From: a virus
Length of the DNA: 37,885 nt
Virus record (IMG/VR): IMGVR_UViG_3300044911_000980
Span: 1 to 37,885 of that record
Strand: one strand, 5' to 3'
How positions within the stretch are numbered: the stretch's first letter is position 1; the number at the start of each line of letters is the position of its first letter. The notes under the pieces are model-generated. The model did not search any database. It was not told the DNA's origin and worked only from the letters and a program-made list of their open reading frames with translations. Below, piece after piece: positions 1 through 37,885 of this stretch. A program made the position numbers and the translations under genes.

Positions 1-72
1 AGGCTCAGTGGTGCAACCAGTCAGAGCAAGAAAGACAAAACCAGCCCAGCAACGAATCCGATGGCGAACCAT
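1..72 (-). CDS. Partial lipoprotein, probable outer-membrane spanin subunit
   Basis: This small open frame runs off the left edge, so only its first 24 codons are seen. It begins MVRHRIRC and continues through a hydrophobic stretch (WAGFVFLAL) to a lipobox, L-T-G-C, with the Cys at residue 20, followed by T-T-E-P. That is a textbook lipoprotein signal: basic N-terminus, short hydrophobic core, then LxGC. It starts inside the 34-aa membrane-peptide gene in another frame and lies just downstream of a holin. Small lipoproteins nested or overlapping in lysis cassettes are usually o-spanins (Rz1-like), which join the inner and outer membranes in the last step of lysis. The lipobox and start are seen directly; the spanin role is inferred from context. 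A generic phage lipoprotein is the alternative. Confidence 0.6.
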   Translation of the reverse strand, partial: MVRHRIRCWAGFVFLALTGCTTEP

Positions 73-125
73 CTGATGGTGAGGTTGGCCCATAGGTAGT
101 TAGCGACTTCTTTGATTTTTTCCAT
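21..125 (-). CDS. 34-aa single-span membrane peptide in the lysis cassette
   Basis: A 34-codon frame starts with ATG, overlaps the holin 3' end by 26 bases and ends at TGA. The product has a charged, amphipathic N-terminus (MEKIKEVANYLWANLTIRW) followed by a hydrophobic stretch (FAIGFVAGLVLSFLL) long enough for one membrane span. It has almost no residues after the span, so it is too short to be a normal i-spanin, which needs a periplasmic coiled coil. It could be a second small holin, a holin regulator, or just the upstream frame of the lipoprotein gene that starts inside it. Overlap with both neighbours and the clean membrane segment support its being translated. The function is not recognised. 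Confidence 0.5.
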   Translation of the reverse strand: MEKIKEVANYLWANLTIRWFAIGFVAGLVLSFLL

Positions 126-429
126 TGGTGTGATTAGAGCGGTTGATGACGCCTTGGACAAGAGCGATGATTTCAGGCGTGGCTGAGCCGCAACAGGAAT
201 AGATGATAGCCTCGTACAGGGGCTCCACGTGGCCGTGAACGGCGAAGTAACACAGCACCCCTACGATTCCTCCTGCGATGATTCGTCTTACCCATAGCCA
301 CCAAGGAACATCCTCTCTGGCTAAAAGCAATCGGCACAAGGCACCAGCCGCACCAAGCATGGCTACAATCCACCCACCTTTCTTCAACTCTTCGGCGGTC
401 TGTAGCAGGTTGTTATCTGGCGGATTCAT
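100..429 (-). CDS. Holin (LydA / holin superfamily III-like)
   Basis: The 109-aa protein has three hydrophobic segments, at about residues 20-38 (WIVAMLGAAGALCRLLLA), 44-64 (including IIAGGIVGVLCYFAV) and 72-95 (AIIYSC to ALVQGVI). It ends in a polar tail. Size, hydrophobic pattern and the motif around RRIIAGGIVGVL resemble the LydA-type holins, which form holes in the inner membrane to release or activate the endolysin. The ATG at 429 overlaps the 3' end of the giant gene by 17 bases, so it is probably translated by coupling at the end of the late operon. Two tiny membrane or lipoprotein frames follow it. The endolysin is not in the window. The holin call is fairly firm on topology and context; the exact family is from memory. 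Confidence 0.75.
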   Translation of the reverse strand: MNPPDNNLLQTAEELKKGGWIVAMLGAAGALCRLLLAREDVPWWLWVRRIIAGGIVGVLCYFAVHGHVEPLYEAIIYSCCGSATPEIIALVQGVINRSNHTNGKNQRSR

Positions 430-3400
430 CTTCGTCCTCTAGGGCGTCTCCTTGGGTAGGAATCTTGCGACCCATCGTCACCCTGCTGAAGTTCTTGTAC
501 ATGCGGTCCATCATTTCGAGCGTGGAAGTATTGGCTTCGGGTCTGCCCTTGCCGCCGTTGGAAGGCATGAGCAGGGCGATGCCCTCAACAATCTTCTTTC
601 TGAATGCCTTCTTGTGTGCCTCGGAGGGCATGCGGGGCTTGAACCTGAGCACAGGCCCACCGACAGAGAAGTAAGTAGCCATGGCCTTGCCAAGGGCTTC
701 GGCGTCGTTCACGTCTACCTTGTTCATGTGTCTCATCCACAACTTGGCACCAACCACGTTGAACACATGTCCGAACGGAGCCATGGCTTTGTTAGCGGAA
801 TTGCGGAACGAATCACCAGAAGTGTACACGCCCTCAGAGTTCTCACGTGCAGACTTTACGACGCCAGCAAACTGCTGGGGTCTGCTGTATTTCTTTGGGT
901 GCTCGGACAACTCGAAACCGCTTATTAACTGGTTTCTCATGCTTTCTCCAGTCGTGTTTCCTTGGATGTGTCCCTGAGTGACATATCCTCCGACGGAGCC
1001 CCACTCGGCCATAAACTTAGAGATGTACGGCAATTGGCCTAAGTACTTTGAGTTCTGGAAAAAGGCCTCCCTGAGTATGGTCGGGTTCGAAATCTTTTCC
1101 ATGATGGCACGTCCAGACTTAGGGTCTACAAGCGTGTAGGTTCCGTCGTTGGCAACTGTCACCATGGGCCTCTGGAAAGCGTCCGTGGAGAATTTGTCGA
1201 TGGATGACTGCTTCTGTCCGAACATGATGGATTGGATGAACCAAGACGGAGCACCATACTGAGATACGTACCCCATGGCTCTTCCTTGCTCAGACCAGTA
1301 GAACGTGGACGAGCCAGCGTTAGCCGCCGCCGAGTCGATGACTCTCTGCCTGTCGTTCTTTTCTCCGCTGACGACGTTGCCGTACCACTTCTTCATGAAC
1401 TCGGTGGAGTTATCCTTCGGCTTGATAGGCTTCAGGTTCTCATCGAGAAGATTAGATTCAGAGGAAGCACCCATCATGTCGCTCGGGCTTCCGATGTAGT
1501 CGGCGGCTGAGGCCGTCATGTCTCCGCTTGAGGTCACGGCTCTCCAGAAGTCCTTGGCGTCACTGAAATCTCCAGCGAAGATTCCAGAACCCATCAGAAG
1601 CGGTGCCGCTTCCTTGGCCGCCAAGGCCATGTGAATCCTGATGTCTCCCTTGGCTCCGTTGTGCTCAAATTCCGCTCCCCTTCTAAACACTCTTTCGAAG
1701 AACGCATTGTCTTCTTCGGCCAGTCTCTTGAAGAAATTTCCGTGCAACTGCACTCTGACTGCCTCTGGCAACAGGTGAATCTGGGTCATCACGTGTGCGA
1801 AAACACTGTCGGATGACATGGGAAGCATGTTTGCCTGTCGCCCGATAAGCATTGTAGCGACGAGGTCCATTGAATGGCCTCTCAACACCTGCATTCTTGC
1901 GTCAGCATAGGTGATGGCACCGAAGCCAGCGTTCGCCGCTCTTAGGATGGTTCCAGTGAGTGCCACAGGCTTGTAGATGTCCTCGACGCCGAACGGAAGC
2001 GTGTTAGCCAGTCTCGGCATGTTGCCAGAGGTGCTAATGGGAACTTCCTTGGCGAGGGCGTCGATTTTCTCCTGCAATTTCTTAATTTCTACAGGGACAG
2101 TGCCAAGGCTGGACACGTATGCAACAAGGCCAGAGACGGAACTTGAGGCAAACTGACCTAGTGCGGTGTTTGCGGCAACAAACTGCACCCCGTATTCACC
2201 GCCCTCATCTACGCTCACATCTGGAGCCATCTTTAATTCCGTGTAATCCAGATTTCTGTACGGAACGTCCGAAAGCATGGACTCTCCAAGAGGGAACAGC
2301 AACTGTGCTGGGTTGGTCCTGTCAACGTCCACAGAACTCTTGATGAGAACGTATCTGTTAGGATTGTTTCTGATTTGCTGAGCCAGAGGTCCTACGTCGT
2401 AGTCCTTGCCCATGTAAATCAAGTTAGGGTCACCTTCGGTGTTAACCTCAGGCATGGCCATCTGGTTCCTAGGTGACTGCAAACGCTCACGATAGGTAGC
2501 GATGAGGTTATCAAAGAACTTGGCCTTAGCCAGCCTGCTTGCCTTGGGTCCAGAATAGTCTCTCAGGTATTCCTGATGCCTGTGATTGTCTCCAGACAGA
2601 ACCTTATCCCTCATGGCTTCGATTCTGTCGATTGTCCTAGCCGCAACGGCATCCCAGTCGATGTCAGCGTGGGCAACGGAGTTCTTTCTGCTGTCTGCGA
2701 TTCCTACGGACTTTGCCACAACCTCTGGGTCCTGTGCGGCATGGACCATGAATACGAAACTGGCGGTAGGCTGAGGTCTTCCAGATGCGTCATCCCTGTA
2801 TGAGAATCGTTCGAATAAATCCGAACCCATGAACTTCTCTGGCAATAGGTATGCAAGAACGTCTCCAGATGCGAGGTTCTGGATTTGGATGGAGATTCTT
2901 CTTCCAGTCTGAACAGTCTCACGCCTGTCGTCCATGTCGGTGAATACTGAAACGTCATCCCTTCCTGAGGGTGGCTTTCTGTAGACGCTGAAATCTGGTT
3001 GCGAGTAGACTGGGATTGTATCCTTTCCGACATACTCCCTGTAATGCTCTGGAACCACCATGGTGCGTCCAGTTTCCTTGAGTTTCAGGGTATCCCTGAG
3101 CATGTACAATTCAATCGGGCTGAGAAGACCGAGGTTCTTCATCAAGAACATGGTGTTCATTCTGACGTCACCACGATTGCTCATCATCTGGTAGTGAAGG
3201 TTCTCGTTAATCTTGCCCTGTGCCTCCTTGATTGACGCCTCAAGGTTCCTCTTGGCTTCAATTAGTTTACCAAGGTCGCTGGCTTTCTTCAGGCCCTCAA
3301 TCTGCTCAAACGTGTCTGGCAGTGATGCTTCGGCTTTGGTAGGAGCACCAAACGTGTTGTACTGGAACGGGTCAGACTGGATTTCCTCGATGCCGATGAC

Positions 3401-6400
3401 TGTCTCGGGGTCGAATTTGAATCCGCTGACAGGGTCTTCTCCGTGGAAGGCAGGGTCATTCGGGCTTGCGATACCATACTCCCCGTTAAGGACTGCCATC
3501 GTGCTTCTCACGTGACCCAACTGGAACGTGCCTTGGTCGTTTTGGTCATAGTGGCTGAAGTCAGCCACGTTTCCTCCGACCATCTTTCTAACAGCCTCGA
3601 CACGCTCGATTGCGTCGATGATGGATTGAATCTTCTTCTTCTGCTCTGGGCTATTGGCGTGTGCCATTCGGTCCTTAAGGGTTTCCTTGGCACGTTTAGA
3701 CTCCTCGATGATTCGCTTATTGGTGACATCGACGAACATCGGGCTGGACTGATAGTTTCCGACGAAAGTAGCGTAGGAAGCATGGTAGTTGCCGCCATGG
3801 AAGTAGACGCCCTGTTGCGACATGGACGGATACGGCTCAGTTGCTGGTGCTTTGGCAAACAGGCCAGTCCCAGAATGAAGAGACACGGCGGCATCAGCGG
3901 TATCGCTACTGGTGGGATTGAAGGGATTAAACTTGGGTACAGACTGGTCTGCGTATGCGATTTCGTACGGATTGATGAATCCAAGTTCGCCGATGGAGGC
4001 TTCAATGGTCTTGTACTGGTCTCCTAACCTTTCCCAGATTACATCTCTCATGATGTAGTCCAGTTGTGCAGGTCTTACGCCTCTGGAATCTCCGTAAAAC
4101 CCTTGAGGGGTGGCGGCAGTCTCAGCCGTGTTCCTGTAAAGGTCCCTCATATTCTGAATCGTGTCGGCAAGGGTCTGGCCAACCACTTCGGCGGGAAGGC
4201 CCATTTCGGCGATGGTGAACTCAAGGGACTTTTGAATCGCAGAGCCGAGGGCTTCTGCGTCGGTCTTAGTGTCTTCTGAAAGAAGTTTCTGGTCGATAAA
4301 GTCAGATACTTTCTTGAGGTTGTCCAAGTGGGTGGTGACAACGAAATTCTCCTTGCTCTGAACATTGTCGATGTATGGCAAGTTGTACAACCCGCTCAGC
4401 GAGCCAGCCCTGATGTTGTGGTTCTGGGATAGCATCGTGCTCCTATTTTCCCTTCTTACCTGCCTGCTGGTCCTAGGGTAGACAGTGTAAATGAACTCCG
4501 CTAGGTCCTGTCTGCTCAGCATGGTGTTCATGTTGTCATGCAACAGATAAACGATGCCAGTCATACGCATCTCATCCTTGGAGACTTGGTTTTCTTTAAA
4601 GAACTTGTACCAGTCAACGCCCGTCATGGAGTCTGGATACAAGTCTCTACCCATCTTACGCTTTCCGTAGGCAACCACCCTCATCAACTTGGAAGAGAAC
4701 TCGACGGGTCCGCTACCATTGCCAAAGGTAAGTTTTCTTCTCAGAAGGCCCTCAAGTTCCCTAGCATCCCTGCTACCAATCATCAAGTTGGCTGGCTTGA
4801 CCTGCACTTGAGGGACGCTCGTTTGAAGAACTGTACCAGACTGAAGGGCTTCACTGACGGCAACCGCCTCCTGATTGGTCATTTGCTTATCAAAGTCACC
4901 AACAGTGAACGTCTTGGACAGGACCATTGATAGGCCTTGTTCATTGGCTTTGAGTTGTTTCCCAGAATGAACACCGAAGTCTACGTTGCCGTCCTTATTT
5001 GTGACGCCCTGCTTAATCTGAGGTGCCTCCATGCCAGCCGCAACAAGGGCCTGTGCCATGATTGCCTTGCTGGCTTTTACGCCGAACTGGGACCTGATGT
5101 TCTCGGCTTCGGCTAAGGTCTTCACGGGGACGACCTTCTTCGTGGTGATGGGGTTTCCGTACTCGTCGATACCAGTCTGGTAGTCGTAGGTTACGAAATA
5201 GCCAGTGGGCTTGGCCTTGGGGCCTCTATGGACGATGGATACTCCGTTCTCTTCCTTGCCATCCCAAGCGAACTTCTGGAGTTCGGGCCTGTTGGGGAAC
5301 ATTAGTTCAATCGCAAGAGCGGTGTCTCCGTTTTTGGTGACATGTCTTTCAGCGTCAGGAATGGAGTACCCGTGGTCGGACCTAAGTGCCATGCCAGCGA
5401 CGGATTCGATGTCTTGGATAAGCCTAGGGTTTCTACCGAGGATTGCCTGCGAGCGGATGGACATGACCTGCGTATGCCTATCCAAGTCCATCGGGGTTCC
5501 GACTTCAGCCAACTGCTGGCCGTTGTTGAGAAGGATTTCATCCATGCTCATGGCTTCCGTCATGGAAGGAACGATTGTATCAGCCATCAGTGCCCCCATT
5601 CTGGACAGACGCTGATTGGCGGGGGAGAAATTGCTTACTGTGCTGTGGAGTACTCCGTGAATGGCGGCTCCGTCTCCCAAGAAAGGAACTTGGTTTGCAG
5701 AGTAATCTCCGAAAGTCCTTCTGGCGAGAACCTGACCAAGTTCCATCATGGAGCCACCGATTAGAAGGTTATGAAGGAAGGCACGGACAACTTCTGGCGT
5801 AGAGTTGGCTGGCAACGTCATGCTGACGTATTGGTGGCCAGTCCTATGACCCAAGATGGAGTATGCCATAGCCAATGCGTCGGCATTGGTGTGTGCACTG
5901 TCGCTGGACATGAGGGTTTCGAATCCAGACTGTGCCCTGCTGTGCTTCCAAGGAATGCCTGCCTTGTTTCCTTCGACGCCTTCGTATCTTGCCCTGATGG
6001 AGTCGCCCCTCAGTACCTTTGCCCTAGCAGATTTGATTAATTGCTTACGCCAAGCCTCGCCGCTGATGGACATGGCTTTGTTCATTCCAGCGGGAGCACT
6101 TAGGTAATTTGCCACAGACATGTCACCGAAAAGGGCCATGTGGATGTTGGCTGGGTTGATTTCACCAGTGTACGGGTCGTAGCCAAGTGACTCGGAAATG
6201 CTGAATCCTACTGGAATCTTGGACCTAGCATTCGGGTAGGGGAAATACTGAGTTCCTAGGTATCCAGACTTGTACCCAGTATGGTCTCCAGTGACGTTGA
6301 TGACGAGCCTTCCGTCTTCGAGCCTCTTCCACGCAAAGCCCATCATGGGACTGGTCATGAAAGGACGGGATTCGGTGTTGGAGTCTATGGTGCTCATCCC

Positions 6401-9400
6401 ATTATCCCTGTCTGGAACGATTGCATGGGTTCCGAACAGGGCACCAATACCATCGGCATGTGCCCTGAACTTAGGACTGCTTAGGCCAGATTCGTTTTCT
6501 TCAGACTTAAGGCCTCTTCTAGAAATGGCACGTCCGCTGTTCCTGAATCTGGCAGGCTCAATGCTGACCTTGTCGGTCTTCATTCTCCTAGCCTGTGCTA
6601 TGATTGAATCGACGACATACTTTCTGATTAGTGGCTGGCTGACTTCGTTGCCCCTGTTTGCCACCTGCGTCTTGTGAACTCCGATGAGCAGGTCTGGCAG
6701 AACGTTGGTATTCTGCTGACTTTCTACGACGGAGAAAGGCTCTGGGTCGTTGGCCGCAGGGTCATAGACCTTGAACAATGCCTCCGCCAGTCCGATAGGT
6801 TCTCCGTCCATGCCAATCTTGGGTGCCTGAAGTTCTCTTTCCTGAACCCTCAGCGTGTCAGCGGGCACGATGGAGTGGATTCTGTTGGGGTGACTAGGGG
6901 AAGATGAGAATCTTCCACCGACGGCGGTATCGAAAGCCCTGAACGTAGCGTTCTGGTTCCTGTAGGCCATCGGAGAAACATGGGTCATGATGCTGCTGTG
7001 AGGCCTGTCTACCTGAACCTCTCCTTCGCTCATGCGAGGAACGTAGCCGACGGCATTGGAATCCATGACGGACCAAGCGGAAAGAAGGGCATGCCAAGTA
7101 TGCTTGTCCGTGAACAGGGCGGCCAAAGAGTTAAGCAACGTCTGAGGAACGTGACCCTTTTGGTACATGTCAGTCAGCGTATCCATCTTGTTGACACCCA
7201 TTTCAGTGAGGTATCTTCCTTCGGTTAGATAGAAGTCCATCTGCCTTAGCAGTTCAGCACGGGCGTCTCCACCGATTTTCTGGGACAACGCTGGGGCTTC
7301 GGGAAGTTTCTTGATGTGCCTGATGGCGTTGAACACACCGAGCATCGTGATGATTCCGTACGCAGAGTTGGAAGAACCAAGATGGCTCAAGATTGCAGTA
7401 ATCTGCTTGCTGTTAAGCGTCTCAAAGAACTCCCTGCTAGCCGTTCTCATTTCAACAGTCTGAGCGGCCCTAGGGTCGTGGTTTCTGTAGGCTTCCCTAG
7501 CCTTCTTGAGAAGTTCCCTCTGCTCCACGCTGAGGATGTCTCCAGTGGTCAGGTTGCCGCCCTTAACTAGGGGGGCCTTTTCTGACATGGCGGCGGCGAC
7601 AAATGGAGCGGCGGCGATGGCTACGCTCTCTGGGTTGTGTCCGCTCTGGAATGCGTTATCAATCAGGTTGGACGGATTCGGCTGTGCCCAAGCACGATAG
7701 AAGTCGGCGTCCTGCGTAAGGGGGCTGGAAATCTCGACACCCTTCTCCCAAGACATCAGGTACGTCGCAGAATGCAGGGCGTGAAGGCCAGTCGTGTAAG
7801 GAAGTGCGAAGTCAATACGAACACCCAACTCGCTTCTTGAGCCCTGTGCACTGATGATGTTTGCGGCTAGGTCTGCCAGAGGTGCGATGTAGGACATCGG
7901 TCTAGTGACGTTGCCAGCACCATCGTTCATGGCACCGAACACAAGGGACCTGACAGCAAGGTCCTTCATGACGGAAGCACGTACGGCGGGTGCGTTGAAG
8001 TCCTTGGAGCCTACACCCGCTGGGCTGAGCGTATGATTCCAGATTGGGAGTTCGATGTTTCTCTTATGTGCAAGGCTTGCCGAAGTATCAGCCATCAGGT
8101 TTTCCTGAAGAACCAGACCTCCGTCGGCACCACGATAGCCCCTAAGCAGGGACAGTTCTTGGATGAACTCGTTGCCAATGTAAGAGTTGGGGGCGTTTCT
8201 CTGGACGTTTCTATGAACGGAGTCTCTTGTGGAACCTTGAGGGTCGCCGACAAGCAATGTCGCAACCCTTCCAAGTTCAGCGGCCTGAGCCGCAATCTTG
8301 CCGATAAGCCTGATACCGAGTAGTTCTGACGTGTGCATTCCCTCTTCCCTGTCGGTCAGGTCTTGAATCACCTTTTCGGTAAGCCTTTGCGTGGCAAGTG
8401 CCGACGTAGTGACGGACATCAGATTGGCTTGGACGTTTACGTTATCAGCGGCGAAATATCTGTCTCCTAGGTCATCAAGGAGGGAGTAGAATTGAACACC
8501 AAATCTACCAACCATTGCTTCTGAGTTGGTAAGTCCACCAGACCTAGTCGATGACTCGGAAGTGAATCCGACGACAGGCATCATGGTATGAAGTTCTACG
8601 AAAGCATCCCTGACTTCTGGGCTGAATCCGCTGGCGTAGATTTGGGGAGCAATGCCAAGTTGGTTGCTGGTTCTGGTAGTTTCCTGAGTATCAAGAGTCT
8701 CGCTGTCCATGAACGACATTGAGGCTCCGAACCCTCTGTTCGTGTTCTGACCACGTGATACGTTGGAAGTGACTCTAAATCCAGCAAGGTCAGGCTCAAT
8801 CATGGCCAAGGACGCCTCGTCCATCAGGGCCAACTTGATTGCCATCAACTGTTCGGGATTGGATTTTTCCGAAAGGTTTTCCTGAAGTTTGGACAAAGCC
8901 ATTTCGTAGAAAGGCTTCAGCAGGAACAGTTTTCTGAAAAGCCTCTTGTTGAGGTCCCTTGCACGGGAAATCAATTCGCCCTTCATCCTGCTGTCTGCGT
9001 CGGTATCCTTCATGGCCTGACGAGAACCGAAATAGCCTACCTCCATGTACCCTTTCTTGGTCCATCTCTCAATCAGTGCGTTCCAGACATCGGCCTCGAC
9101 CCACTCTGGCTTTTCTGGCCTGAATCTGGCGGTGCCAGTGTTGTAGTCGATGTTTACGAGGGTGAACCTGTTAGGTCTTCCGCCCTCGGCATACATGCCC
9201 TTGAACTCGGCATTGAACTGCTTGGGCATTCCCCTGTCACCGAATACGCTCTTGATGAATGATTGGAACTGGTCATCGCCTCCGTACCTAGTCTCATCAT
9301 CGAAACTTGATTCGATTGCTTGAGTAAGTTTAGAGGGGGTTGCGGCACCGACGTTCGTTTTGGAACGTGCGATAATGCCAGAGCCCATAGACCTAGTTGC

Positions 9401-18258: not shown

Positions 18259-18269
18259 TTGTTTTGTGT

Positions 18270-19772: not shown

Positions 19773-19782
19773 TTGGTTTAGT

Positions 19783-21039: not shown

Positions 21040-21911
21040 CAGGAGAACGGGTCAACGCCTCCAGACGCTTCTCTTCTCTTAGACTCAGCCTCCCTGAATT
21101 TGGTGTCGGTAGCGGCTCTGCTCTTCGTGTAATCGAATGCACCGCCCTGAATAAGAGAATTAATCAGGGCCGCTCTCTTCACTGGGTCCAGTTCGGCAGA
21201 GATTCTGGAGCGGTTGTAGTCATACCTCTCCTGCATCTCTCTCGCCTGCTGGCTTGAGCCCCTTTTGGAAACCTTATCCCTGTATTCATACTGGCCAGTC
21301 TGCTCGTTGAAAAACTCCTCACTGGTGAACTCGTCTTCCGTGCTATCAGTGAAGTAGTAATCAGAGCCCTTGTCTCCGCCTTTGGCCATGTAGGCATTCC
21401 ACTTGTTGTCAGCCGCCTCTAGGTCTGCCTCTGCCTTTGCTAGGGCATCCATGTTTGCCTTTTTAGCGGCATCGTCGGCAATTTTCTTTCTTCTGTCGAA
21501 TTCGTCGCTTTCCCTTTTAGCAGCGGCGGCGGCTTCGATTTCTCTGGCTCTCACCAGTTTGTCCGCTTCAATCTTACGCTGGGCGGTGGCGGCATCGGCT
21601 TCAATCTTACGCTGGGCAGTGGCCTCGGTGGCAAGTTCTCTGTCGGACTTTAGTTTAGCCTGAAGAGTCTCCATTTGGCTGGCCCTGTTGGCGGCACCTT
21701 CCTGAAGGGTAGTCTTGTTTCTCATCAGGGCCTCCTGCTGTTGCTGACCTACCTGCATGGCAGTCCTCATGGTCTGACCTGCCCCTTGAACGCCAGTTGT
21801 GAAGGCGTTTGTGGTGAACTGGTTTTGGCTCTCAAGCATCTGGTTTCTTTGCCCCAATGCGTCGCTGAGCGTGTCTCTGCGAGCCTGTCCTCCTAGGAAA
21901 TTGAATTGCAT
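21039..21911 (-). CDS. Coiled-coil protein, probable internal virion protein (290 aa)
   Basis: Residues about 70-175 are a long Ala/Glu/Lys/Arg-rich helix, a clear coiled-coil candidate. It includes two tandem 11-residue units (ATAQRKIEADA then ATAQRKIEADK, residues 97-118). The N-terminal 60 residues are Gln/Thr/Gly-rich (for example AMQVGQQQQEAL), and the C-terminus is polar and mixed. No enzyme motif is seen. The gene follows the 306-aa gene by 5 bases and overlaps the start of the 418-aa gene by one base. In T7-like podoviruses the first ejection protein after the nozzle is a small helical protein (gp14), so this gene occupies a comparable place. That comparison is positional only. Confidence 0.6.
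   Translation of the reverse strand: MQFNFLGGQARRDTLSDALGQRNQMLESQNQFTTNAFTTGVQGAGQTMRTAMQVGQQQQEALMRNKTTLQEGAANRASQMETLQAKLKSDRELATEATAQRKIEADAATAQRKIEADKLVRAREIEAAAAAKRESDEFDRRKKIADDAAKKANMDALAKAEADLEAADNKWNAYMAKGGDKGSDYYFTDSTEDEFTSEEFFNEQTGQYEYRDKVSKRGSSQQAREMQERYDYNRSRISAELDPVKRAALINSLIQGGAFDYTKSRAATDTKFREAESKRREASGGVDPFS
21558..21623 (-). repeat. Two tandem 33-bp units (11-residue repeat) in a coiled coil
   Basis: Two adjacent 33-base units inside the 290-aa gene encode the same 11-residue sequence except for the last residue (ATAQRKIEAD plus A or K). The DNA is nearly identical between units, which suggests a recent duplication rather than convergent helix composition. An 11-residue (hendecad) period preserves a right-handed or straight coiled-coil register. 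Confidence 0.8.
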
Positions 21912-21916
21912 GTTAG

Positions 21917-24222: not shown

Positions 24223-24224
24223 GT

Positions 24225-26901: not shown

Positions 26902-26902
26902 A

Positions 26903-28017: not shown

Positions 28018-28029
28018 GCTCCGCTCTGC

Positions 28030-29382
28030 TTACGAGAGCAGACCGCCGTTGGAGTTAGCCGCCTTGTAGTCCAGCATGCCGAACGTCAGGGGCGACTGGA
28101 CGACCAGAGCCGCCATCGCTTCCATCATTCTGCGGGGACCACCGCCGTTTTCGGTCAGTTCACGGACCTGAGCGATGTTGCCGCCGTAGCGGATTTCAAG
28201 CATGTCCCACGGGATAATGAAGCCCTTGGTCTTAGCGTTGTTGGCGTGGAGGTTGACGTAGACCTTGGCTTCGGCTTCGGTAGCGAAACGAGCAGGGACG
28301 GCATTAGCGGTGCCGACGGCGACTCTTTCGAACTTATTGGTGGTAGCGTCCTTGAGCCAGACGAGGTTGCCAGCGGCGGTGATGCCATCATAGACGGCGT
28401 AGCGACCAGTGGCGGTGTAGGAGGCACCAGTAGAGCCAGAGCCAGTGTCTTCGATGCGGTAGGGGTTGACACCCGCATGGAGGAACTGGGTCGGGATAAG
28501 GGCCAACTTACCGAAATCGCCTTCGAAGTAGTCCACGGAAACCTTGATGCTGTCGGAATTGGCATCTCTGTTGTTCGTGATTCTGGACTCCTGAGCGGGG
28601 GAAGCCTTGGTGTAGACGAGGTTGGTGAACTGACGCTTGAGGGCAGTGCCAACGACGGCTTCGTGGTTCTTGAACTGGCCAGTCTGCTCATAGACCGAGG
28701 TCATGAGGTCCTGAACAGTGTTCTCACCGAGTTGGTCAACGCTTTCGCCAGTGCCAACGATAGAGGAGGCAGGGGTGCGGAAGTTTTCACCGACGGGGCG
28801 GATGGACTGGTTCTGGACGCCGTACTTGGCCTGAATGTTGGTGGTGGCACCAAGCAGGTCATTCTTAATCCAAGCCGTGAGACAGCGAGTGCGATACGGG
28901 GTCGCACCATCGTCGATGGCGGGAAGGATGTCAGAAGTGAAGGTCATTTCCATCGAACGCTTGAGGTCGATGGTGGCCTTGGACAACTGGCGGCTGAGTT
29001 CGTCCTTAACACCAGCGATGTTGAGGATGTCCTGCGTCAGGTTGGACACGTGAACGGCTCTGCGGAACATGTGGATGTTGTTTTCCACTTCTTCTCTGTA
29101 GCCGAGGGTGTACTGCTTGAAGGCAGGGTTGGTGGCGGGGGAGGTGGGGTCAACGTCAGCACCATCGAGAACGCCGAGTTCGATGGAGGGGTCGGGGTGG
29201 CGGTCAACCTGCCATCTGAACGTCGTATTTCCAGGTTTGGAACCACGCTTAGCCATCGAGGTGATGGGCGTGTCCTTGGCATCGACGTTGGCGATGAGGT
29301 CAGAGAGTTCTTCTCTGATACCGACTCTAGCACCCTGAAGGGGACGCTGATTCTGGAACTGTCTTTCGAATAGGGAAGCCAT
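28030..29382 (-). CDS. Major capsid protein, SU10/DUF5309-like HK97 fold (450 aa)
   Basis: The N-terminal region has the hallmark of SU10-type capsid proteins: GIREELSDLIANVDAKDTPI (residues 21-40), then T-S-M-A-K-R-G and a segment with FRWQVDRHPDPS. These are followed by NIHMFRRAVHVSNLTQDILN and the long helix DELSRQLSKATIDLKRSMEM. The length fits HK97-fold capsid proteins without a delta-domain protease target. It directly follows a scaffold-like gene and precedes head-completion and adaptor genes. The leader before the ATG (aacctaaaaactatc) is A-rich with no Shine-Dalgarno, which is notable for what must be a very highly expressed gene. Family assignment is from conserved motifs and synteny. 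Confidence 0.92.
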   Translation of the reverse strand: MASLFERQFQNQRPLQGARVGIREELSDLIANVDAKDTPITSMAKRGSKPGNTTFRWQVDRHPDPSIELGVLDGADVDPTSPATNPAFKQYTLGYREEVENNIHMFRRAVHVSNLTQDILNIAGVKDELSRQLSKATIDLKRSMEMTFTSDILPAIDDGATPYRTRCLTAWIKNDLLGATTNIQAKYGVQNQSIRPVGENFRTPASSIVGTGESVDQLGENTVQDLMTSVYEQTGQFKNHEAVVGTALKRQFTNLVYTKASPAQESRITNNRDANSDSIKVSVDYFEGDFGKLALIPTQFLHAGVNPYRIEDTGSGSTGASYTATGRYAVYDGITAAGNLVWLKDATTNKFERVAVGTANAVPARFATEAEAKVYVNLHANNAKTKGFIIPWDMLEIRYGGNIAQVRELTENGGGPRRMMEAMAALVVQSPLTFGMLDYKAANSNGGLLS

Positions 29383-29396
29383 GATAGTTTTTAGGT

Positions 29397-30505: not shown

Positions 30506-30751
30506 TTAAGACATGTCTGCCTTAGCCTCTTCCCTGAGCCTTTGGACCTCAAGAAGCATGTCGTTGATGGCATCAAGTCGTCCAGCGGAGTGGATTCTTG
30601 CCTCACCAGCAGTGTTTACGGACATTACCTTACCCATCTCAATCTGTAGAGCCAAGTCGCAGACGATAAGGAAAGACTTGTACAGTTCTTCTCCCTCGTT
30701 CGTCCTAAATTGGAACGACTTGACGATTTTCTTTCTCTCTTCGGTCATCAT
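30506..30751 (-). CDS. Small helical protein downstream of portal (81 aa)
   Basis: No family is recognised. The protein is nearly all helical and charged, with a final helix AINDMLLEVQRLREEAKADM. The start is decided by an ATGATG sequence that overlaps the portal stop (TGA) by four bases, a classic coupled start. It lies between portal and scaffold genes. A small assembly factor or minor head protein would fit. There is no evidence for a particular job. Confidence 0.65.
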   Translation of the reverse strand: MMTEERKKIVKSFQFRTNEGEELYKSFLIVCDLALQIEMGKVMSVNTAGEARIHSAGRLDAINDMLLEVQRLREEAKADMS

Positions 30752-32994
30752 GCGATGGGCGTATTGACGTTAATGGTGGTGTTTTGGGTCTGCTGAGGGG
30801 GCTGGGCCTGCTCCTGCTGGCCGACGCCCTCCTTGCTAAATTCCTCCTGAATCTCCTCAGATGCCTGAGAAACGCCAATTCGCCCGATTTGCTTGTTCTT
30901 TTCTTGGTCGATGGAGAACTGCAACTGCTTGGTGTAGTTCTGGAACAGGATTTGGAAGATTCTGTCGCTGTTAAGTGCCTGTTGGGCCTTCGGGTTCTTC
31001 TGGATGATGTCTTGGGCGAACTGCAACTTGCTGGAGGCGGCAGGGTCCATCTCGGTGTACAGGGCTTCGTTGCCCAGCATCATCATTCCGATGTCGCTAA
31101 CGACGTCCTTGTACAGTTTCTGGGAGGCGGTGGCTTGGTCGATGACCAGTTCTCTGGCCGCATCAGGGCTGATGGACTCGATGACCAGTTTTACCAACTT
31201 GTTTCTGTCGATGATGCCGCCACTATCGAGCGGAACAACAGTCTTGATAATGGCCTCCAGTTTCTTCTGTACGAATTCTGGGTCAGTGTCTCTGACGTCG
31301 AAACGTACGTTTAAGTCAAACTGGCTATGAATGTCTGACATTCCCTGCTTCAGGGGGCTACCAGTGATTCTGATGATTTCCTCTTCGGACATGAACTGGA
31401 GGCTCAGCGAGAACATCTGGGTGTAGACCCTGTTCCAGAACATAAGCCACCCGTCCACCTGAAGTTGCTTAAGCATCTGAACCTTCTGTGGGTCAATAAG
31501 TTCGCCAACGGCAAATCCGTAGTAGTTGCCTAGGTTTTGCTCAACTTGCTGAATGACTTGGAAGGCCATTCCAGCATCGCTCCTAGGGGATTCTAGCCAA
31601 GTGTAGTCGTCCTTGTTAGATACAGGGAGTACCTGAGCAGGGGCTATGCGGTTAAGGGCACCGATACGCTTGACCACCTTGACTGGCGGGAGAACTTCAA
31701 AGGCGGTCCTATCCCTGATGGCGTCGTGCTGAGCCTTTACCTCGTCCTGCTCAGTCTTGTTGATTTCGGGGATGCCTCTGGATTCTGCAACTGCTCTGCG
31801 GTTTCTCTCACGCCTGTATTCTACGAACGGGTACTCCCCGTGTGCGTAGTTGAGGATGTCCTGCTTGGCGAAGAGTTCCGCTCCGCAGTGCGGAGAGAAT
31901 ACAGTGTAGTAGATTGCGGGTACGTCGTTGCTGTCCAACTGCCTGTAGTAGGCCCAGACGACTTCAATCAGGTTGTTGCCACGCTCGATGTTCGAGTTGA
32001 GCATCGTGGTGGTGGGAATGAGGTTGGGGTCATTAAAGTAGTAGTTGTTTCCCATGCTATTGACCGCTTTCTCGACCCACTCCATGTTCCAACCTGCAAT
32101 CTTGGCGGTAGAACGCATCTCCACTTCGGTCATGTACTGCCTGCGGAAAATGACACGGGCCTTTTGAAGGTCAGCCGTCTCAGGGGGGAAGCAGACTTCG
32201 TCGAAGGGCTTGAGGGCCTCAACGTGGGGAAGGTTCTTTTGAACGTAGATTTCAGGGATTTCTCCTACGCCATTCTCCCTCATTCCCTTGATGAATTTCT
32301 TCATGTCCCTGAGTTTCATCTGGGGCATTACATCCTTAAGGAGAGACATGGCGTATTCCTCCTTGTTCGGGTCCACGATGGAGTTGAAGAGTTTGGTGAA
32401 CGTGCCACCAGACTGGCCTCCAGCCTTTGCCTGTTCTGCCTCAGCCATGGACATGTTCTGGAGTTCTTCCAGTTTCATGCTGTTGATTCTGGTGCCCATC
32501 TGCTGTTCCCAAGTAACCTGAACTACAGACCATCCATAGGTTAGTGCGTAGTCGGCCGCCAGTTCAGCCTCCTTGTGCAATTCGTTCTTAATCTTAGTCT
32601 CAACCATCCAACGCATCAGCGTGGTAGCCGAGGCGGCGGACATAGTGTCGTTGATTTCGGTTCCTCCGACCTTAAGGGTGCAACCCTTGTATGCGGTAAG
32701 GAGGAGTGCCTTCTGGTCGTTAATCAGCCTATCGACGAGCCTGATGCGTACATCGGAAGCACCTTCGAACGGGAAGGCTGGGTCCCCGTCTGGGCGAGCC
32801 CAAGAGTGCTTCTTGCCATCATCTGTCTGACCAGTCCATCTGGTGAGCCTGATGTCATCGGCGTAGTTCATCTTCGACACCATCGTGCCGTGGAACGCAG
32901 AACGCTGATACTCCGAAAGGAGCAGGTTAATGTCAGGCTTGTCGGCGTGATACGCCAGCCTATCAGCGTGAGGAGTCGGGCTTTTGAAGTTCAT
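30748..32994 (-). CDS. Portal protein (748 aa)
   Basis: The length and pattern fit large podovirus portals (P22/SU10-like). The N-terminus includes NYADDIRLTRWTGQTDDG and FPFEGASDVRIRLVDRLIND (about residues 75-94), typical of these portals. It continues with clip and wing regions, including QVTWEQQMGTRINSMKLEEL. Further features are a middle region with ARVIFRRQYMTEVEMRST, the long C-terminal helix region, and a Gln-rich tail (VGQQEQAQPPQQTQNTTINV). Portals form the dodecameric ring through which DNA is packaged and ejected. The gene lies downstream of the large terminase with one small gene between. Its start overlaps the helix-turn-helix gene by 32 bases, with no Shine-Dalgarno (leader cagaatacca). 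Confidence 0.93.
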   Translation of the reverse strand: MNFKSPTPHADRLAYHADKPDINLLLSEYQRSAFHGTMVSKMNYADDIRLTRWTGQTDDGKKHSWARPDGDPAFPFEGASDVRIRLVDRLINDQKALLLTAYKGCTLKVGGTEINDTMSAASATTLMRWMVETKIKNELHKEAELAADYALTYGWSVVQVTWEQQMGTRINSMKLEELQNMSMAEAEQAKAGGQSGGTFTKLFNSIVDPNKEEYAMSLLKDVMPQMKLRDMKKFIKGMRENGVGEIPEIYVQKNLPHVEALKPFDEVCFPPETADLQKARVIFRRQYMTEVEMRSTAKIAGWNMEWVEKAVNSMGNNYYFNDPNLIPTTTMLNSNIERGNNLIEVVWAYYRQLDSNDVPAIYYTVFSPHCGAELFAKQDILNYAHGEYPFVEYRRERNRRAVAESRGIPEINKTEQDEVKAQHDAIRDRTAFEVLPPVKVVKRIGALNRIAPAQVLPVSNKDDYTWLESPRSDAGMAFQVIQQVEQNLGNYYGFAVGELIDPQKVQMLKQLQVDGWLMFWNRVYTQMFSLSLQFMSEEEIIRITGSPLKQGMSDIHSQFDLNVRFDVRDTDPEFVQKKLEAIIKTVVPLDSGGIIDRNKLVKLVIESISPDAARELVIDQATASQKLYKDVVSDIGMMMLGNEALYTEMDPAASSKLQFAQDIIQKNPKAQQALNSDRIFQILFQNYTKQLQFSIDQEKNKQIGRIGVSQASEEIQEEFSKEGVGQQEQAQPPQQTQNTTINVNTPIA

Positions 32995-33175
32995 TGGTAT
33001 TCTGATTGATAAAGTTTAAAATCTCATCCCTGAAGTACATGTGCTGTCCTCCTAGAGTCTTGAAAGTCTTGATGGCACCCTTGTTTCTCAGTCTGAGAAG
33101 GGTGGACTTAGACAGGTTGAAAATGCGTGAAGCGTCAGCAAGCCTGAGTAGCGGGGGTGTTTCTTTAGGGAGCAT
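32963..33175 (-). CDS. Small helix-turn-helix DNA-binding protein (MerR/excisionase-like, 70 aa)
   Basis: From the ATG at 33175 the product is 70 aa. Residues 10-53 match the excisionase/MerR-type helix-turn-helix pattern: LLRLADASRIFNLSKSTLLR (helix-turn-helix), then NKGAI, then GGQHMYFRDEILNFI as a winged part. I chose this start because it lies one base after the terminase stop and a GGAGG sits upstream. The longer frame from 33223 would overlap the terminase by 47 bases. It overlaps the portal start by 32 bases. A DNA-binding protein between terminase and portal could help recognise packaging sites or regulate the late block. An excisionase role is less likely, as no integrase is seen. 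The domain is clear; the role is inference. Confidence 0.8.
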   Translation of the reverse strand: MLPKETPPLLRLADASRIFNLSKSTLLRLRNKGAIKTFKTLGGQHMYFRDEILNFINQNTNELQKPDSSR

Positions 33176-33176
33176 T

Positions 33177-34805
33177 TTAGTAAGAGCCTCCTCCGATTGC
33201 CTTGTAGGTGTCGGCACCGCCATACATCGGGTCCATGACGGCTAGGTATCTGAGTGCGTCAATCGGGTCTTTACTGGCACCCTTTTCGGCGTCCAGCCCA
33301 GTCCACTCTCTCAAGCACCAAATCAGATTGTGGCATTTTTCGGAGATGAAAAGTTTTGGGAGATTCACCATGGAAATCTCCTGATTAGGGTCATAGGCGA
33401 ACCAGTCGTTGATGATGGATACTCCCTCCTCAAGCCTCAGGCCTGCCGCTGGGGTGAAGTACATTGGGTTATCCCCGTCATCCAGCAGGTTGATTAGCGT
33501 GGTACCGCCTTCCTTCTGGATGATGGTCGTTCCGCCTGCACGTGGGTCAATGAACCTGTCTGCGATGATTTCGCCTTTCTCTAGGTCGAGGATGTGCTTC
33601 TTGATTTCATCGAGGCCCATGCCAGCACCCTGACGTTGGGCTGGGCCAGCCTTGCCATCGTGCTTCTCGCCAGCCATCGCCCATTCGCCCATGCTGATGT
33701 CTGGCCATTCCCTGTAGATGAACTTTGAGCCGTCTGGCATCACCCTCATCCAGAGCATGAACCAATTTCTAGAGCCAGCAGGGTCAACAGCCATGTAGTT
33801 AGTGCCCTCCTCTGGCACCAATTCATCTGGGATGATGTTTGGTTCTCCAAATCTCGGGAACTGGGAGCCAGAAAGCGACTCCGCCCATCCGTATGCACGG
33901 ATTTTCACCTCGTAAGGCCCTCTTCCCCTAAGTGCTAACTTGATTTGTTCGAACGGGGAGTACTTATTGAGGATTGAATGAAACCAGATTACATTGGCCG
34001 AACCCTTGCTACACTCTGCAACGTAGGGCATGTGCCCCTTGGGGATGCTTGGGACATTCTGGGTATCTGGAAGGAGGTCTGCAAAGAGCGTCTTCTTAAT
34101 CCTAGAGCCAGCAACGTAGTCTTTGACGACGGGGGTGAAGCCAGTGATGGGCGTGAAGGTAAGAATCATCTTACCAGAGCGGGTGACTAGTCGGTAGCGG
34201 AGCGTCTCAATCCAGTCCTGAGGCACAAGTTCGTCGCACCAGATGAAATCTGGTTCGCCACCTTCGATGACCTTCTTCTCCTGACCATAGTTCATGAAGA
34301 AGATTTGGGAGCGATTCGGAAGGACGAACGTTGCGTCCGAAAACCCATTTTTCTGCGAATACTGGATGTTCGTGACCTTGGTCTTCTTGGCGTTCTTGAA
34401 TTCTGGGGGCATGTACTTCCAGATGACCGCCTGTTGCATCTGTATGGATGTCTGAGAAGTGGTGTGTAGGCACCAAACACGGCTTTCGGGCCTAGAGCAC
34501 AGCAACTGCATTACACGCTTGGCGGCGTATTCGGTCTTTCCTGCTCGGTTTCCTCCCATGATGAGCAACTCATTGCCCTTCATCAGCAGTTTGTCCGCCT
34601 CTGCCCAACTTTCTGGCTCGTAGCCATGTCTGTAGGGGTCATTCTGCTCGGCCTTAATCTTTTCCTCACGACGCTTGAGGATTTCCGTCAGGGCATCTGG
34701 GCCTAGTTCCTGAGCCAAGTCCAAGATTTCGGACTCGGTAGGCATCTTGATTACGGGATGCTTGGTTAGTTCAATCCCGCAGACTGTTTCTTTCTCAAAA
34801 GCCAT
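33177..34805 (-). CDS. terL: Terminase large subunit (packaging ATPase/nuclease, 542 aa)
   Basis: All expected motifs are present. The Walker A motif is GGNRAGKT at residues 84-91. The Walker B motif is DFIWCDE at 186-192, with catalytic Glu192. A coupling motif, LTFTPITGF, is at 215-223. An RNase H-like nuclease domain has acidic residues at D341 (AVDPAGS), D420 (FIDPRAGG) and D513/D516 (KDPIDALRYL). The ATG at 34805 shares a base with the stop of the upstream gene (TGATG). A longer frame from 34820 would add five residues (MGQGL) and is less likely. The protein pumps DNA into the procapsid at the portal vertex and cuts it. No gene recognisable as the small subunit lies directly upstream. 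Confidence 0.97.
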   Translation of the reverse strand: MAFEKETVCGIELTKHPVIKMPTESEILDLAQELGPDALTEILKRREEKIKAEQNDPYRHGYEPESWAEADKLLMKGNELLIMGGNRAGKTEYAAKRVMQLLCSRPESRVWCLHTTSQTSIQMQQAVIWKYMPPEFKNAKKTKVTNIQYSQKNGFSDATFVLPNRSQIFFMNYGQEKKVIEGGEPDFIWCDELVPQDWIETLRYRLVTRSGKMILTFTPITGFTPVVKDYVAGSRIKKTLFADLLPDTQNVPSIPKGHMPYVAECSKGSANVIWFHSILNKYSPFEQIKLALRGRGPYEVKIRAYGWAESLSGSQFPRFGEPNIIPDELVPEEGTNYMAVDPAGSRNWFMLWMRVMPDGSKFIYREWPDISMGEWAMAGEKHDGKAGPAQRQGAGMGLDEIKKHILDLEKGEIIADRFIDPRAGGTTIIQKEGGTTLINLLDDGDNPMYFTPAAGLRLEEGVSIINDWFAYDPNQEISMVNLPKLFISEKCHNLIWCLREWTGLDAEKGASKDPIDALRYLAVMDPMYGGADTYKAIGGGSY

Positions 34806-35455
34806 CAGGCCTTGCCCCAACTCTCCTCAAGATTGACAGGGAATCCGTTGTTTGCCGCTTCCTGTGCGTTTGATTGAATTACGCCTCCGTAGTTGCCGAA
34901 TGTCGCAACCCTCATCGGACCACATACGCTAGGGTTGAATCTCGAAATCCACGGCATCAAGCCAGCGGCCACAGGGCCAGCCGCCATCTCACCGAATTTT
35001 CCAAGGGAGATTTGTCCGTAAGTCGGAGACATTGATTTAGCGATGTCTGATTTCTTACTCGGTGGCTCTATCGGCATCTGACGCATGGGGGTCGCCTTTT
35101 TTCTCCCATACATGTCCTGCGTCTCGCCCCTGTTGTACTTGCCCCAAGTCCTTTCAGTTATGTGGGCCCGTTCAGCCTTCGTCTTTTCCTTGGCCGCATA
35201 CCCCTTAGTGTACTTGTAGCCTTTGTTCCGCAGGACGCCTTCATTGTCCATTTCGTATCCATCGGGGATATCGACTTTTCTAGAAAGTGAGTTAAATCTT
35301 TCCAGACTAGACGCCCGTGATTCGTCACGCTTCCTTACGTAAGCCTGTTGCTCTTGGTCTAGGGCACGGGATAGTGCCCCCATTCCCATAAGCGAGATTG
35401 TGGGGTCAAGGCCAGTGTTCCCTTCTGACGGAACGTATTTGTCGTCTTCCGCCAT
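34805..35455 (-). CDS. Unknown protein upstream of the large terminase (216 aa)
   Basis: No family is recognised. The first 130 residues are polar, basic and probably partly disordered (for example YVRKRDESRASSLERFNSLS and YTKGYAAKEKTKAERAHITE). A more hydrophobic segment follows at about 160-175 (GEMAAGPVAAGLMPWISRF), then a Gly/Asn-rich end. The slot directly upstream of the large subunit is where a small terminase normally sits. I see no helix-turn-helix here, and the length and composition do not look like known small subunits. It could be a divergent small terminase or a minor virion protein. Its stop overlaps the terminase start by one base. Confidence 0.55.
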   Translation of the reverse strand: MAEDDKYVPSEGNTGLDPTISLMGMGALSRALDQEQQAYVRKRDESRASSLERFNSLSRKVDIPDGYEMDNEGVLRNKGYKYTKGYAAKEKTKAERAHITERTWGKYNRGETQDMYGRKKATPMRQMPIEPPSKKSDIAKSMSPTYGQISLGKFGEMAAGPVAAGLMPWISRFNPSVCGPMRVATFGNYGGVIQSNAQEAANNGFPVNLEESWGKA

Positions 35456-35467
35456 GTCTGGTCAGGA

Positions 35468-36424: not shown

Positions 36425-36458
36425 TGGGGTGTTTTTTTATTTGGTGGGGTTTTTAAAT

Positions 36459-36572
36459 TTAGCAACGCTTGCCGCCCCTTTGGGGCTTTTTACCTTTGGA
36501 GCGGTATTCGCCCTTAGAGGCTTGATACTTGGTGCCTTCAGACTTCTCGAACTTCTCATTCTTGTACTTCAT
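36459..36572 (-). CDS. 37-aa basic microprotein
   Basis: A small frame encodes 37 residues: MKYKNEKFEKSEGTKYQASK followed by GEYRSKGKKPQRGGKRC. About one third are Lys or Arg, with a terminal Cys. Its ATG overlaps the upstream stop by four bases (ATGA), the same coupled-start style used elsewhere in this block. The leader is A- and C-rich (aataaacccaaaccca). The strong charge suggests nucleic-acid or phosphate binding. No family is recognised. The coupled start and lack of any other gene in this space make it likely to be real. Confidence 0.55.
   Translation of the reverse strand: MKYKNEKFEKSEGTKYQASKGEYRSKGKKPQRGGKRC
36474..36491 (+). terminator. Possible rightward intrinsic terminator-like hairpin
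   Basis: On the + strand, a 5-bp stem (GCCCC, loop TTT, GGGGC) is followed at once by five T residues. It lies inside the 3' end of the 37-aa gene, which is read the other way, so it would act only on antisense rightward transcripts. On the minus strand the same hairpin has the A-run before it and none after. It may be a coding coincidence. Confidence 0.2.
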
Positions 36573-37012
36573 TGGGGTTTGGGTTTATTAGACGTGCTGA
36601 AGAGTCTCTGTGCCGATGCGGGTCTTTGCGAGCAGAAAAATGCAGTTCCTTTCATCTGCACGACGATGTCGGCCCCTCGGTAGAAAAGTCGGGCGTCATG
36701 CGTCTGCACTGTAATGGGAGTTCCCTTACCTTCGATAAGGGCGGTCAAAAGGCGACGATTCGGGAAGTCACACCTAACCACCTTCGCTTTGAAGGTGGTT
36801 GGGTCGATTTCGGCTGGCTTGGCCTCCTTAACGCCGAATTTCTCGAGAACCTTAGCCTTCCCCGAAGGGGAAAAAATTACGGGACACAGTTTCTCGGGCT
36901 TATCGCCCACCTTCTCCTTGTCCCAGTCTTCGCCTCTGACAAGGGTCAGGCGGTATTCACGCAGTTCCTCCTTGGGGAGGCCGTACAGGCGTATCAGTTC
37001 AGATTCTCTCAT
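36569..37012 (-). CDS. Unknown protein (147 aa) between resolvase and 37-aa gene
   Basis: No family is recognised. From the ATG at 37012 the product starts MRESELIRLYGLPKEELREY and has mixed alpha/beta content. Conserved-looking segments include KLCPVIFSPSGKAKVLEKFG and a beta-type end region (TPITVQTHDARLFYRGADIV). A Ser/Pro/Lys-rich tail closes it. A longer frame from 37084 is possible, but its Ser/Thr-rich start would lie entirely within the resolvase gene. The chosen start gives a 14-base overlap. It belongs to the resolvase transcript, so a DNA-processing accessory is possible. That is only context. Confidence 0.6.
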   Translation of the reverse strand: MRESELIRLYGLPKEELREYRLTLVRGEDWDKEKVGDKPEKLCPVIFSPSGKAKVLEKFGVKEAKPAEIDPTTFKAKVVRCDFPNRRLLTALIEGKGTPITVQTHDARLFYRGADIVVQMKGTAFFCSQRPASAQRLFSTSNKPKPQ

Positions 37013-37490
37013 TGAGGTGCTTGCGGATTTGCTCGCAGTATTCGGAGTCGATGAACTTGCAGGGCTTAATCCAGACTCCGACAAAAGGGACCTTGGTGCG
37101 GAATTTCATCACCTTGCCGAAAACCACCTGCGAGTCATCCCCCCAGAACTTCATCTTTGTGAGGGTATCGACCATGGACTTGGCTAGATTGTCGAAATCG
37201 GGCTTGGTGGTCATGGGGGCGTCCTTGCCCTTGTCGGACTTAATCAGGGGAAATCCGAAATAGAGGGTCAGTTCAAGTGGTCCTTCGTAAGGTACGTCTG
37301 GGGCGTACTTCTCGGCTTGGTGGGCAAATTCGTGCATCCACTTCACAACCTCGGATTTGGACGTCTTCCCAATGAATTGACGTCCATCCTTGGTTCGAAG
37401 GATTCTCAGGTCTGACTGATGGGTGGTCCTGATGGGCTCTAGGGCCACCATGAACCTGCGTTCGAAATAGTCGGGGGTATCCTCGGGCAT
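36999..37490 (-). CDS. rusA: RusA-like Holliday junction resolvase (163 aa)
   Basis: The product carries the RusA signature KPDFDNLAK (residues 96-104) and WGDDSQVV (116-123). The four residues of the E. coli RusA active site align in spacing: D98, D100, K104 and D119 here correspond to D70, D72, K76 and D91 there. RusA cuts four-way DNA junctions; in phages it resolves recombination or replication branches before packaging. I start at the ATG at 37490 (MPEDTPDYFERRF). An in-frame ATG at 37529 would add 13 residues, and the longest frame (from 37712) would run deep into the oppositely oriented gene. It is the first gene of the leftward block. The family call is strong. Confidence 0.92.
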   Translation of the reverse strand: MPEDTPDYFERRFMVALEPIRTTHQSDLRILRTKDGRQFIGKTSKSEVVKWMHEFAHQAEKYAPDVPYEGPLELTLYFGFPLIKSDKGKDAPMTTKPDFDNLAKSMVDTLTKMKFWGDDSQVVFGKVMKFRTKVPFVGVWIKPCKFIDSEYCEQIRKHLNERI

Positions 37491-37492
37491 GG

Positions 37493-37521
37493 TTGACACG
37501 TGGTTGAATGGCACATACGAG
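37493..37521 (+). promoter_or_regulatory. Possible rightward promoter with perfect -35 box
   Basis: A perfect TTGACA lies at 37493-37498. Seventeen bases later is TACGAG (37516-37521), a weak -10 with three matches to TATAAT. Initiation about seven bases further on would fall near the ATG at 37528, giving a leaderless or nearly leaderless message. The -35 also lies just upstream of the chosen resolvase start. This is a weak call made by eye, and sigma-70 rules may not apply in the unknown host. Confidence 0.2.
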
Positions 37522-37527
37522 TCAATC

Positions 37528-37885
37528 ATGGATAACGAGCGTCTAAGCACCAACCCCTCTTCCCAGCACAAAGCCTCAAAGGTGCCCAAGGAGCGTAAAC
37601 AACAGGTAGAGGCCCTCTTGAGGGAAGGTAAGCCAATCCTCGAAATCGCCAAGGAAACCAAAATGTCGCCCAACAACGTCATGGCGGTCAAAAGGGCCAT
37701 GCCTGAGTCCACGGGCCTTCAGGACGAGTTCAAGGCTACGACTGTCCGCAACCTGAAGAACTTCGTGCAACAGGCTTCACGCAAGTTGGTGGACGAACTG
37801 GACAACCTGCACGTCTCCCAGATTCCCATCGCCATGGGCATCGCCATCGACAAGATTCAGACCCTACAGGACCAGCCCCAAAGCG
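37528..37885 (+). CDS. Helix-turn-helix DNA-binding protein, partial (119 aa seen)
   Basis: This is the only rightward gene, and it runs off the right edge without a stop. From the ATG at 37528 the product has a basic N-terminus, then a helix-turn-helix at about residues 27-56 (EALLREGKPILEIAKETKMS and NNVMAVKR). A helical part follows, with LVDELDNLHVSQIPIAMGIA and IDKIQTLQDQPQS. Phage proteins with this layout, ending in an 'A-I-D-K' helix and a Gln/Pro tail, are often DNA-binding regulators or small-terminase-like. A second in-frame ATG at 37489 would add 13 residues. The gene diverges from the resolvase, and their candidate starts share CATG sequences at 37488-37491 and 37527-37530. The exact role is open. 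Confidence 0.65.
   Translation, partial: MDNERLSTNPSSQHKASKVPKERKQQVEALLREGKPILEIAKETKMSPNNVMAVKRAMPESTGLQDEFKATTVRNLKNFVQQASRKLVDELDNLHVSQIPIAMGIAIDKIQTLQDQPQS

Follow-up and report, generated by a model that had tools for sequence, protein, structure and literature searches.

We examined a 37,885-base contig from environmental DNA (IMG/VR virus record IMGVR_UViG_3300044911_000980; hereafter the window), which is part of a tailed phage genome of about 48 kb from which several short palindromic words are missing. Because the contigs of close relatives, of which IMG/VR holds many, span 47-50 kb, several of them with terminal repeats, about 10 kb of the genome lies outside the window. Every window gene with a recognisable product is on the minus strand. 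These genes encode an SU10-type major capsid protein (28030-29382; PF17236, 1.8e-37), a scaffold-like protein, the terminase large subunit from which the family tree below was built (33177-34820; PF03237, 5.1e-09; phrog_2, 3.8e-19) and a RusA-type Holliday junction resolvase (36999-37712; PF05866, 5.7e-16). The capsid and terminase proteins together place the phage among those with SU10-type capsids, a grouping that implies no closer taxonomy. A giant gene of 5632 codons (413-17311, minus strand) fills 45% of the window and contains neither a CCNGG site nor the dipeptide Pro-Gly. Across the whole contig (1-37885), GATC, AGCT, CCGG, GCGC and ACSGT (S, C or G) do not occur, and CGCG, CCWGG and GCWGC (W, A or T) are nearly absent.

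An earlier note on this DNA had claimed that five palindromic tetramers were entirely absent. Against expectations derived from trinucleotide counts over all 37,885 bases (Markov), the program count agrees for four of them, with observed/expected values of 0/147.6 for GATC, 0/118.5 for AGCT, 0/107.3 for CCGG and 0/93.1 for GCGC, while the fifth, CGCG, is present once (18836-18839; 1/81.6). The palindromes that the note called plentiful are so, with 121 to 250 copies each (GGCC 178, TCGA 157, CATG 250, GTAC 121, ACGT 145), and every non-palindromic tetramer reaches at least 0.70 of expectation. Ordinary base, codon or mutation bias could in principle make such words rare, as several of them are rich in G+C and phages have dinucleotide biases. 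Codon-matched shuffles had been set beforehand as the comparison that could overturn the claim, and the depletion stands: 200 shuffles preserving all proteins and per-gene codon usage give 64-155 copies per tetramer (GATC 155, AGCT 147, CCGG 114, GCGC 85, CGCG 64), and the lowest counts in any shuffle are 131, 121, 96, 64 and 41, respectively. Moreover, words of the same letters occur normally, words that differ only in a W or S centre behave differently, and the counts are full in relatives whose G+C content is similar. The shuffles and the relatives thus refute ordinary composition bias, to which we assign almost no probability.

Three longer words are also gone from the window, namely CCWGG (1/138), ACSGT (0/46) and GCWGC (4/61, at 6992-6996, 19750-19754, 20666-20670 and 21520-21524), for which the codon shuffles predict 93.7, 62 and 83.1 copies. 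Among the 479 pentamer classes for which 25 or more copies are expected, these three lie at 0.00-0.07 of expectation and the next lowest at 0.60. The identity of the centre base matters: ACWGT is found at 59/60 against 0/46 for ACSGT, and GCSGC at 134/120 against 4/61 for GCWGC. EcoRII reads CCWGG (PMC4081073). A reader of both half-sites that separates W from S centres, as type II restriction enzymes do, is the best explanation for this pattern. Counting a site as eliminated below 0.1 of expectation when more than 15 copies are expected, here with the Markov expectation in place of the Burge measure used in the 2018 study cited below, eight words are eliminated: GATC, AGCT, CCGG, GCGC, CGCG, CCWGG, ACSGT and GCWGC. 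As expected for avoidance of type II sites, depletion is confined to palindromic and pseudo-palindromic words and, judging from the codon shuffles, cannot be put down to the proteins encoded or the codons used; apart from these eight, TATA (1/20.6) and ATAT (8/29.5) are the only other strongly low palindromes.

Defences other than type II systems might also purge words from a phage, through avoidance of the protospacer-adjacent motif (PAM) of clustered regularly interspaced short palindromic repeats (CRISPR) or through phosphorothioate-based or bacteriophage exclusion (BREX)-like systems, and phosphorothioate modification is known to occur at GATC and GGCC. However, PAMs and BREX motifs are seldom palindromes, and eight palindromic or pseudo-palindromic words with distinct W and S centres fit type II sites, so we regard such defences as very unlikely sources of the pattern. 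Because only palindromic and pseudo-palindromic words are affected, W and S centres are distinguished, codon nulls fail and relatives lose words singly, we conclude that several type II specificities have exerted selection. The suggestion in the earlier note of several 4-base type II systems is therefore strongly supported as to type II selection and needs revision as to number and kind, with at least eight specificities rather than five and not all of them 4-base. Taken together, it is highly probable that type II restriction-modification systems in the hosts of this phage lineage have exerted strong selection on it over a long time and that it has escaped by losing their target sites.

The set of missing words varies among the relatives and has changed repeatedly across a terminase tree of 66 rows. 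On this tree, where gain and loss of avoidance are not distinguishable, the minimum number of changes is 11 for ACSGT, eight for GCWGC, six for ATAT, five for CASTG, four each for CCGG, GCGC and CGCG, three for AGCT and one for GATC. CCWGG is missing from nearly the entire family. The window's own group of relatives lacks the five tetramers; in its sister group the tetramers are normal and CCWGG is missing, with CASTG, ACSGT or GAWTC also lost in some members. Elsewhere the missing words are GATC and GCGC (relative G013), GATC, AGSCT and ATAT (G018), GGCC with GCGC partly kept (G007 and G025), or GTAC (0/93 and 0/75 in G017 and G026, which keep GATC, AGCT, CCGG, GCGC, CGCG and GGCC). The centre base is discriminated in relatives as well, with GAWTC at 1/47 and GASTC at 101/93 in G009, and CASTG at 0/25 and CAWTG at 90/98 in G010.

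Aligned ortholog pairs with about 80% DNA identity show how thoroughly sites are lost: the avoiding partner keeps 0/47 ACSGT sites (79.5% identity), 1/93 GTAC sites and 0/57 GCGC sites, against mostly 29-64% of control words (the exception being CAWTG, 18% in one pair). Most losses are by single substitution. The synonymous share of the losses in the giant gene, whose protein is very diverged, is mixed, and hence we do not take silent changes to be the majority. Some relatives have intermediate counts (GCGC 88/192 in G019 and 94/143 in G007; CCGG 127/200 in G023), and in these partial-count genomes the sites are spread evenly along the genome. This argues against a recombination mosaic as the source of the partial counts and fits sites being regained or lost gradually. 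The even spread also looks like relaxed selection, and would suit a variant of the restriction reading in which the pressure was exerted by earlier hosts or by the host community at large, most of the enzymes being missing from the present host. Since all eight words of the window stand at or near zero, most of the pressures must be recent or present, and we hold this variant to be possible, though clearly the less likely form of selection by restriction.

Among the relatives, ATAT is absent or nearly absent in four genomes (0/43 in G003, 0/31 in G013, 0/29 in G018 and 1/30 in G022), and codon shuffles of the giant gene predict 21-26 copies where G003, G013 and G018 have none. TATA is low too in the ATAT-poor relatives. 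AGSCT, in one relative only (G018), stands at 1/72 beside normal AGCT; in its giant gene AGSCT occurs once against 28 in codon shuffles, and AGWCT is not depleted. ATAT, AGSCT and ACSGT may point to undescribed specificities. In a separate observation, a nuclease-like gene of about 145 residues and a gene of about 245 residues are confined, among family members, to relatives that avoid GATC, and most of the others have another nuclease-like gene, of about 156 residues; this split may simply follow the tree.

The loss of sites extends to the proteins. Avoiding both CCGG and CCWGG amounts to avoiding CCNGG, and such a site is present whichever codons are used for Pro-Gly (CCN GGN); by enumeration, Pro-Gly is the only dipeptide that the word set of the window forbids. 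The 21 predicted window proteins contain one Pro-Gly, where 48 are expected and shuffles give 49 (range 27-69). None of the 292 dipeptides is nearly as depleted (the next stands at 0.34 of expectation), and the proteins contain 30 Gly-Pro. For relatives we counted only open reading frames (ORFs) that are homologous to curated window genes and lie on the strand of the giant gene, and found 28 Pro-Gly against 573.5 expected in 18 CCNGG-avoiding genomes and 351 against 465.1 in 15 others that keep CCGG. Pro-Gly content follows the observed/expected ratio of CCGG (Spearman 0.86), the intermediate relatives lying between. Relatives that avoid CCWGG alone write Pro-Gly only with CCC and CCG. In their giant gene most CCGG sites lie outside Pro-Gly codons, and therefore it is the DNA that has driven the change in the protein. 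Eight alignment columns have Pro-Gly in most CCGG-keepers; in seven of these, most or all avoiders have something else (AG, NG, PA, PN, TG and others), one of the seven being a gap column. Losing CCGG and CCWGG together leaves no coding for Pro-Gly, and the protein yields.

These replacements also bear on the possibility that the phage mirrors the composition of a palindrome-avoiding host without itself being restricted. Bacteria do avoid their own restriction sites, according to work cited in PMC6286503. Against this explanation, the elimination here is near total, a degree of loss that published comparisons find to be commoner in phages than in prokaryotes (PMC6286503), and the replacement of Pro-Gly in conserved proteins implies direct, strong selection. 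We consider a mirrored host composition improbable in the extreme.

The sole CCWGG of the window (CCAGG on the plus strand, 29231-29235) falls within CCT GGA (29230-29235, minus strand), the codons of Pro50-Gly51 in the major capsid protein; the 21 proteins have no Pro-Gly besides this one. This KPGN motif is the one column of the eight in which Pro-Gly is kept in all avoiders, and it is invariant wherever found in the family; in G015 and G022 its codons carry CCGG instead of CCWGG. EcoRII requires more than one site (PMC4081073). A lone CCWGG may thus be harmless to the phage, since enzymes of the EcoRII type need two or more sites and would leave a single one tolerable.

How such a genome might arise can be outlined as follows. 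Restriction systems acting on GATC, AGCT, CCGG, GCGC, CGCG, CCWGG, ACSGT and GCWGC would favour any phage that loses a target; sites are removed mostly by single-base substitutions, and each removal would raise the survival of incoming DNA, as published work on lambda suggests. Where a dipeptide has no coding free of sites, it is the protein that changes, and Pro-Gly has been replaced nearly everywhere, with the exception of the one invariant capsid position. When a restriction system vanishes from the hosts, sites would be regained evenly and Pro-Gly would return in step, as the intermediate relatives suggest. More generally, under restriction pressure a phage can probably lose a dipeptide from its entire proteome, with CCNGG avoidance removing Pro-Gly, GGNCC avoidance Gly-Pro and GGCC avoidance Trp-Pro, and the few surviving sites would point to amino acids that the protein cannot easily exchange, here Pro50-Gly51. 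The rule follows necessarily from the genetic code, and the counts show the loss; its generality is uncertain.

As to the host, 84,980 species genomes scanned with a terminase profile yielded two matches, both contigs of metagenome-assembled genomes of Verrucomicrobiota with 51-52% terminase identity, neither of which avoids the words. Verrucomicrobiota as host phylum is accordingly a weak lead, not an assignment. CRISPR spacers from 388 Verrucomicrobiota gave no credible match, the short hits piling on a few query stretches, one apparently repetitive, and looking like chance. The giant gene compared with spacers from 320 genomes of one order gave nothing at E ≤ 1e-4; both spacer searches were run with no positive control. 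A plasmid collection gave no match. The EcoRII-C domain is found in 19 of 376 Verrucomicrobiota genomes, which shows only that such enzymes occur in the phylum. Phage methyltransferases were considered as a reason why some relatives do not avoid the words and set aside, as searches for PF01555 and PF00145, these two families only, found no match in 33 relatives.

Several points weigh against selection by type II systems as we describe it. The enzymes are matched to no host, and a single host, a series of hosts and a host community are not distinguishable. To our knowledge, no restriction enzyme corresponds to ATAT, to AGSCT or to ACSGT as such. The methyltransferase search covered two Pfam families, and base modification of DNA is invisible in sequence. 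The 18 avoiders share ancestry and are not 18 independent cases. The cultured phage Venkman, described below, has nine eliminated word classes, and its host may not carry as many restriction systems.

Site avoidance is usually seen as silent codon tuning; here amino acids are lost in conserved proteins, and avoidance is near complete for eight specificities and switches word by word between relatives. Bacterial DNA-cutting defences can strongly reshape a virus, down to its use of Pro-Gly. Near-total avoidance provides evidence of how strongly restriction acts in nature, and a phage genome is a possible record of past restriction systems. Related phages offer a ready series for measuring the rate of site loss and regain, and surviving sites a means of spotting residues that are hard to replace.

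A few further observations concern the window genes themselves. The protein at the usual portal position (30748-32994, minus strand), conserved beside the terminase, has no Pfam or PHROG match; one Pro-Gly conserved in relatives is replaced in the window (PA in most avoiders). Between these two genes a small protein (32963-33223, minus strand) has by eye a helix-turn-helix of excisionase/MerR look. Phages that avoid type II sites are typically, though not necessarily, non-temperate; no integrase matched among the proteins of the window, which is without about 10 kb of the genome. The giant gene is conserved in 31 contigs, with about 30% identity to the more distant ones compared. A Pfam search with its product found no family above cut-off; two metallopeptidase-like motifs (VGHEFSHGF and LHEIQHAIQ) were seen, and it could be an injected multi-domain protein.

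Elimination of type II sites by the measure used here (observed/expected below 0.1, more than 15 expected) is known in phages with double-stranded DNA (Rusinov et al. 2018, PMC6286503). In the accessible part of that paper we found no description of eight words eliminated in one genome, of a set that switches within a family or of an effect on proteins, and a full-text search of open-licence papers returned no relevant report of a protein-level effect. Recognition-site avoidance is therefore already known, and its protein-level consequence appears to be new.

Phages outside this family have also lost many words together. The nearest GenBank record found, phage C75C1 (OQ984151; terminase 32% identical to that of the window), has also eliminated words (GATC 0/101, GGCC 2/33, CASTG 0/34), but unlike the window it carries an annotated DNA methyltransferase and keeps AGCT and CCWGG. 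C75C1 also shows strong, incomplete depletion of CATG (15/120) and TCGA (41/93) beside its zero for GATC. Escherichia phage T7 resembles the window in GATC (6/143) and CCWGG (2/59) and differs in having only two words eliminated and in encoding the anti-restriction protein Ocr (record annotation). Methylophilales phage Venkman EXVC282S (MT375522), a cultured phage with nine word classes eliminated, has like the window lost many words (ACGT, GATC, GCGC, GGCC, TCGA, CCWGG, CTNAG, GGWCC) and has an SU10-type capsid protein, 25% identical to that of the window; its word set is different and its homology only distant.

We counted dipeptides, with simple ORF calls, in a control panel of phages that had been fetched before the dipeptide idea arose, and the dipeptides lost match the words that each phage lacks. 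In Venkman, Pro-Gly stands at 0/24.7 and Gly-Pro at 1/24.7. Two other cultured phages, Anabaena phage A-4L (KF356198; three words eliminated) and Microcystis phage Mic1 (MN013189; seven words in the first 48 kb), have word sets different from that of the window and have lost Gly-Pro and Trp-Pro through avoidance of GGNCC. In A-4L, where GGNCC is absent, Gly-Pro is at 0/35.4 and Trp-Pro at 0/7.7 with normal Pro-Gly (33/35.4), and in the first 48 kb of Mic1 the values are 1/36.4 and 0/6.1, with Pro-Gly at about half (17/36.4). LUZ24, in which none of these words is eliminated, has 54/55.7 Pro-Gly and 40/55.7 Gly-Pro.

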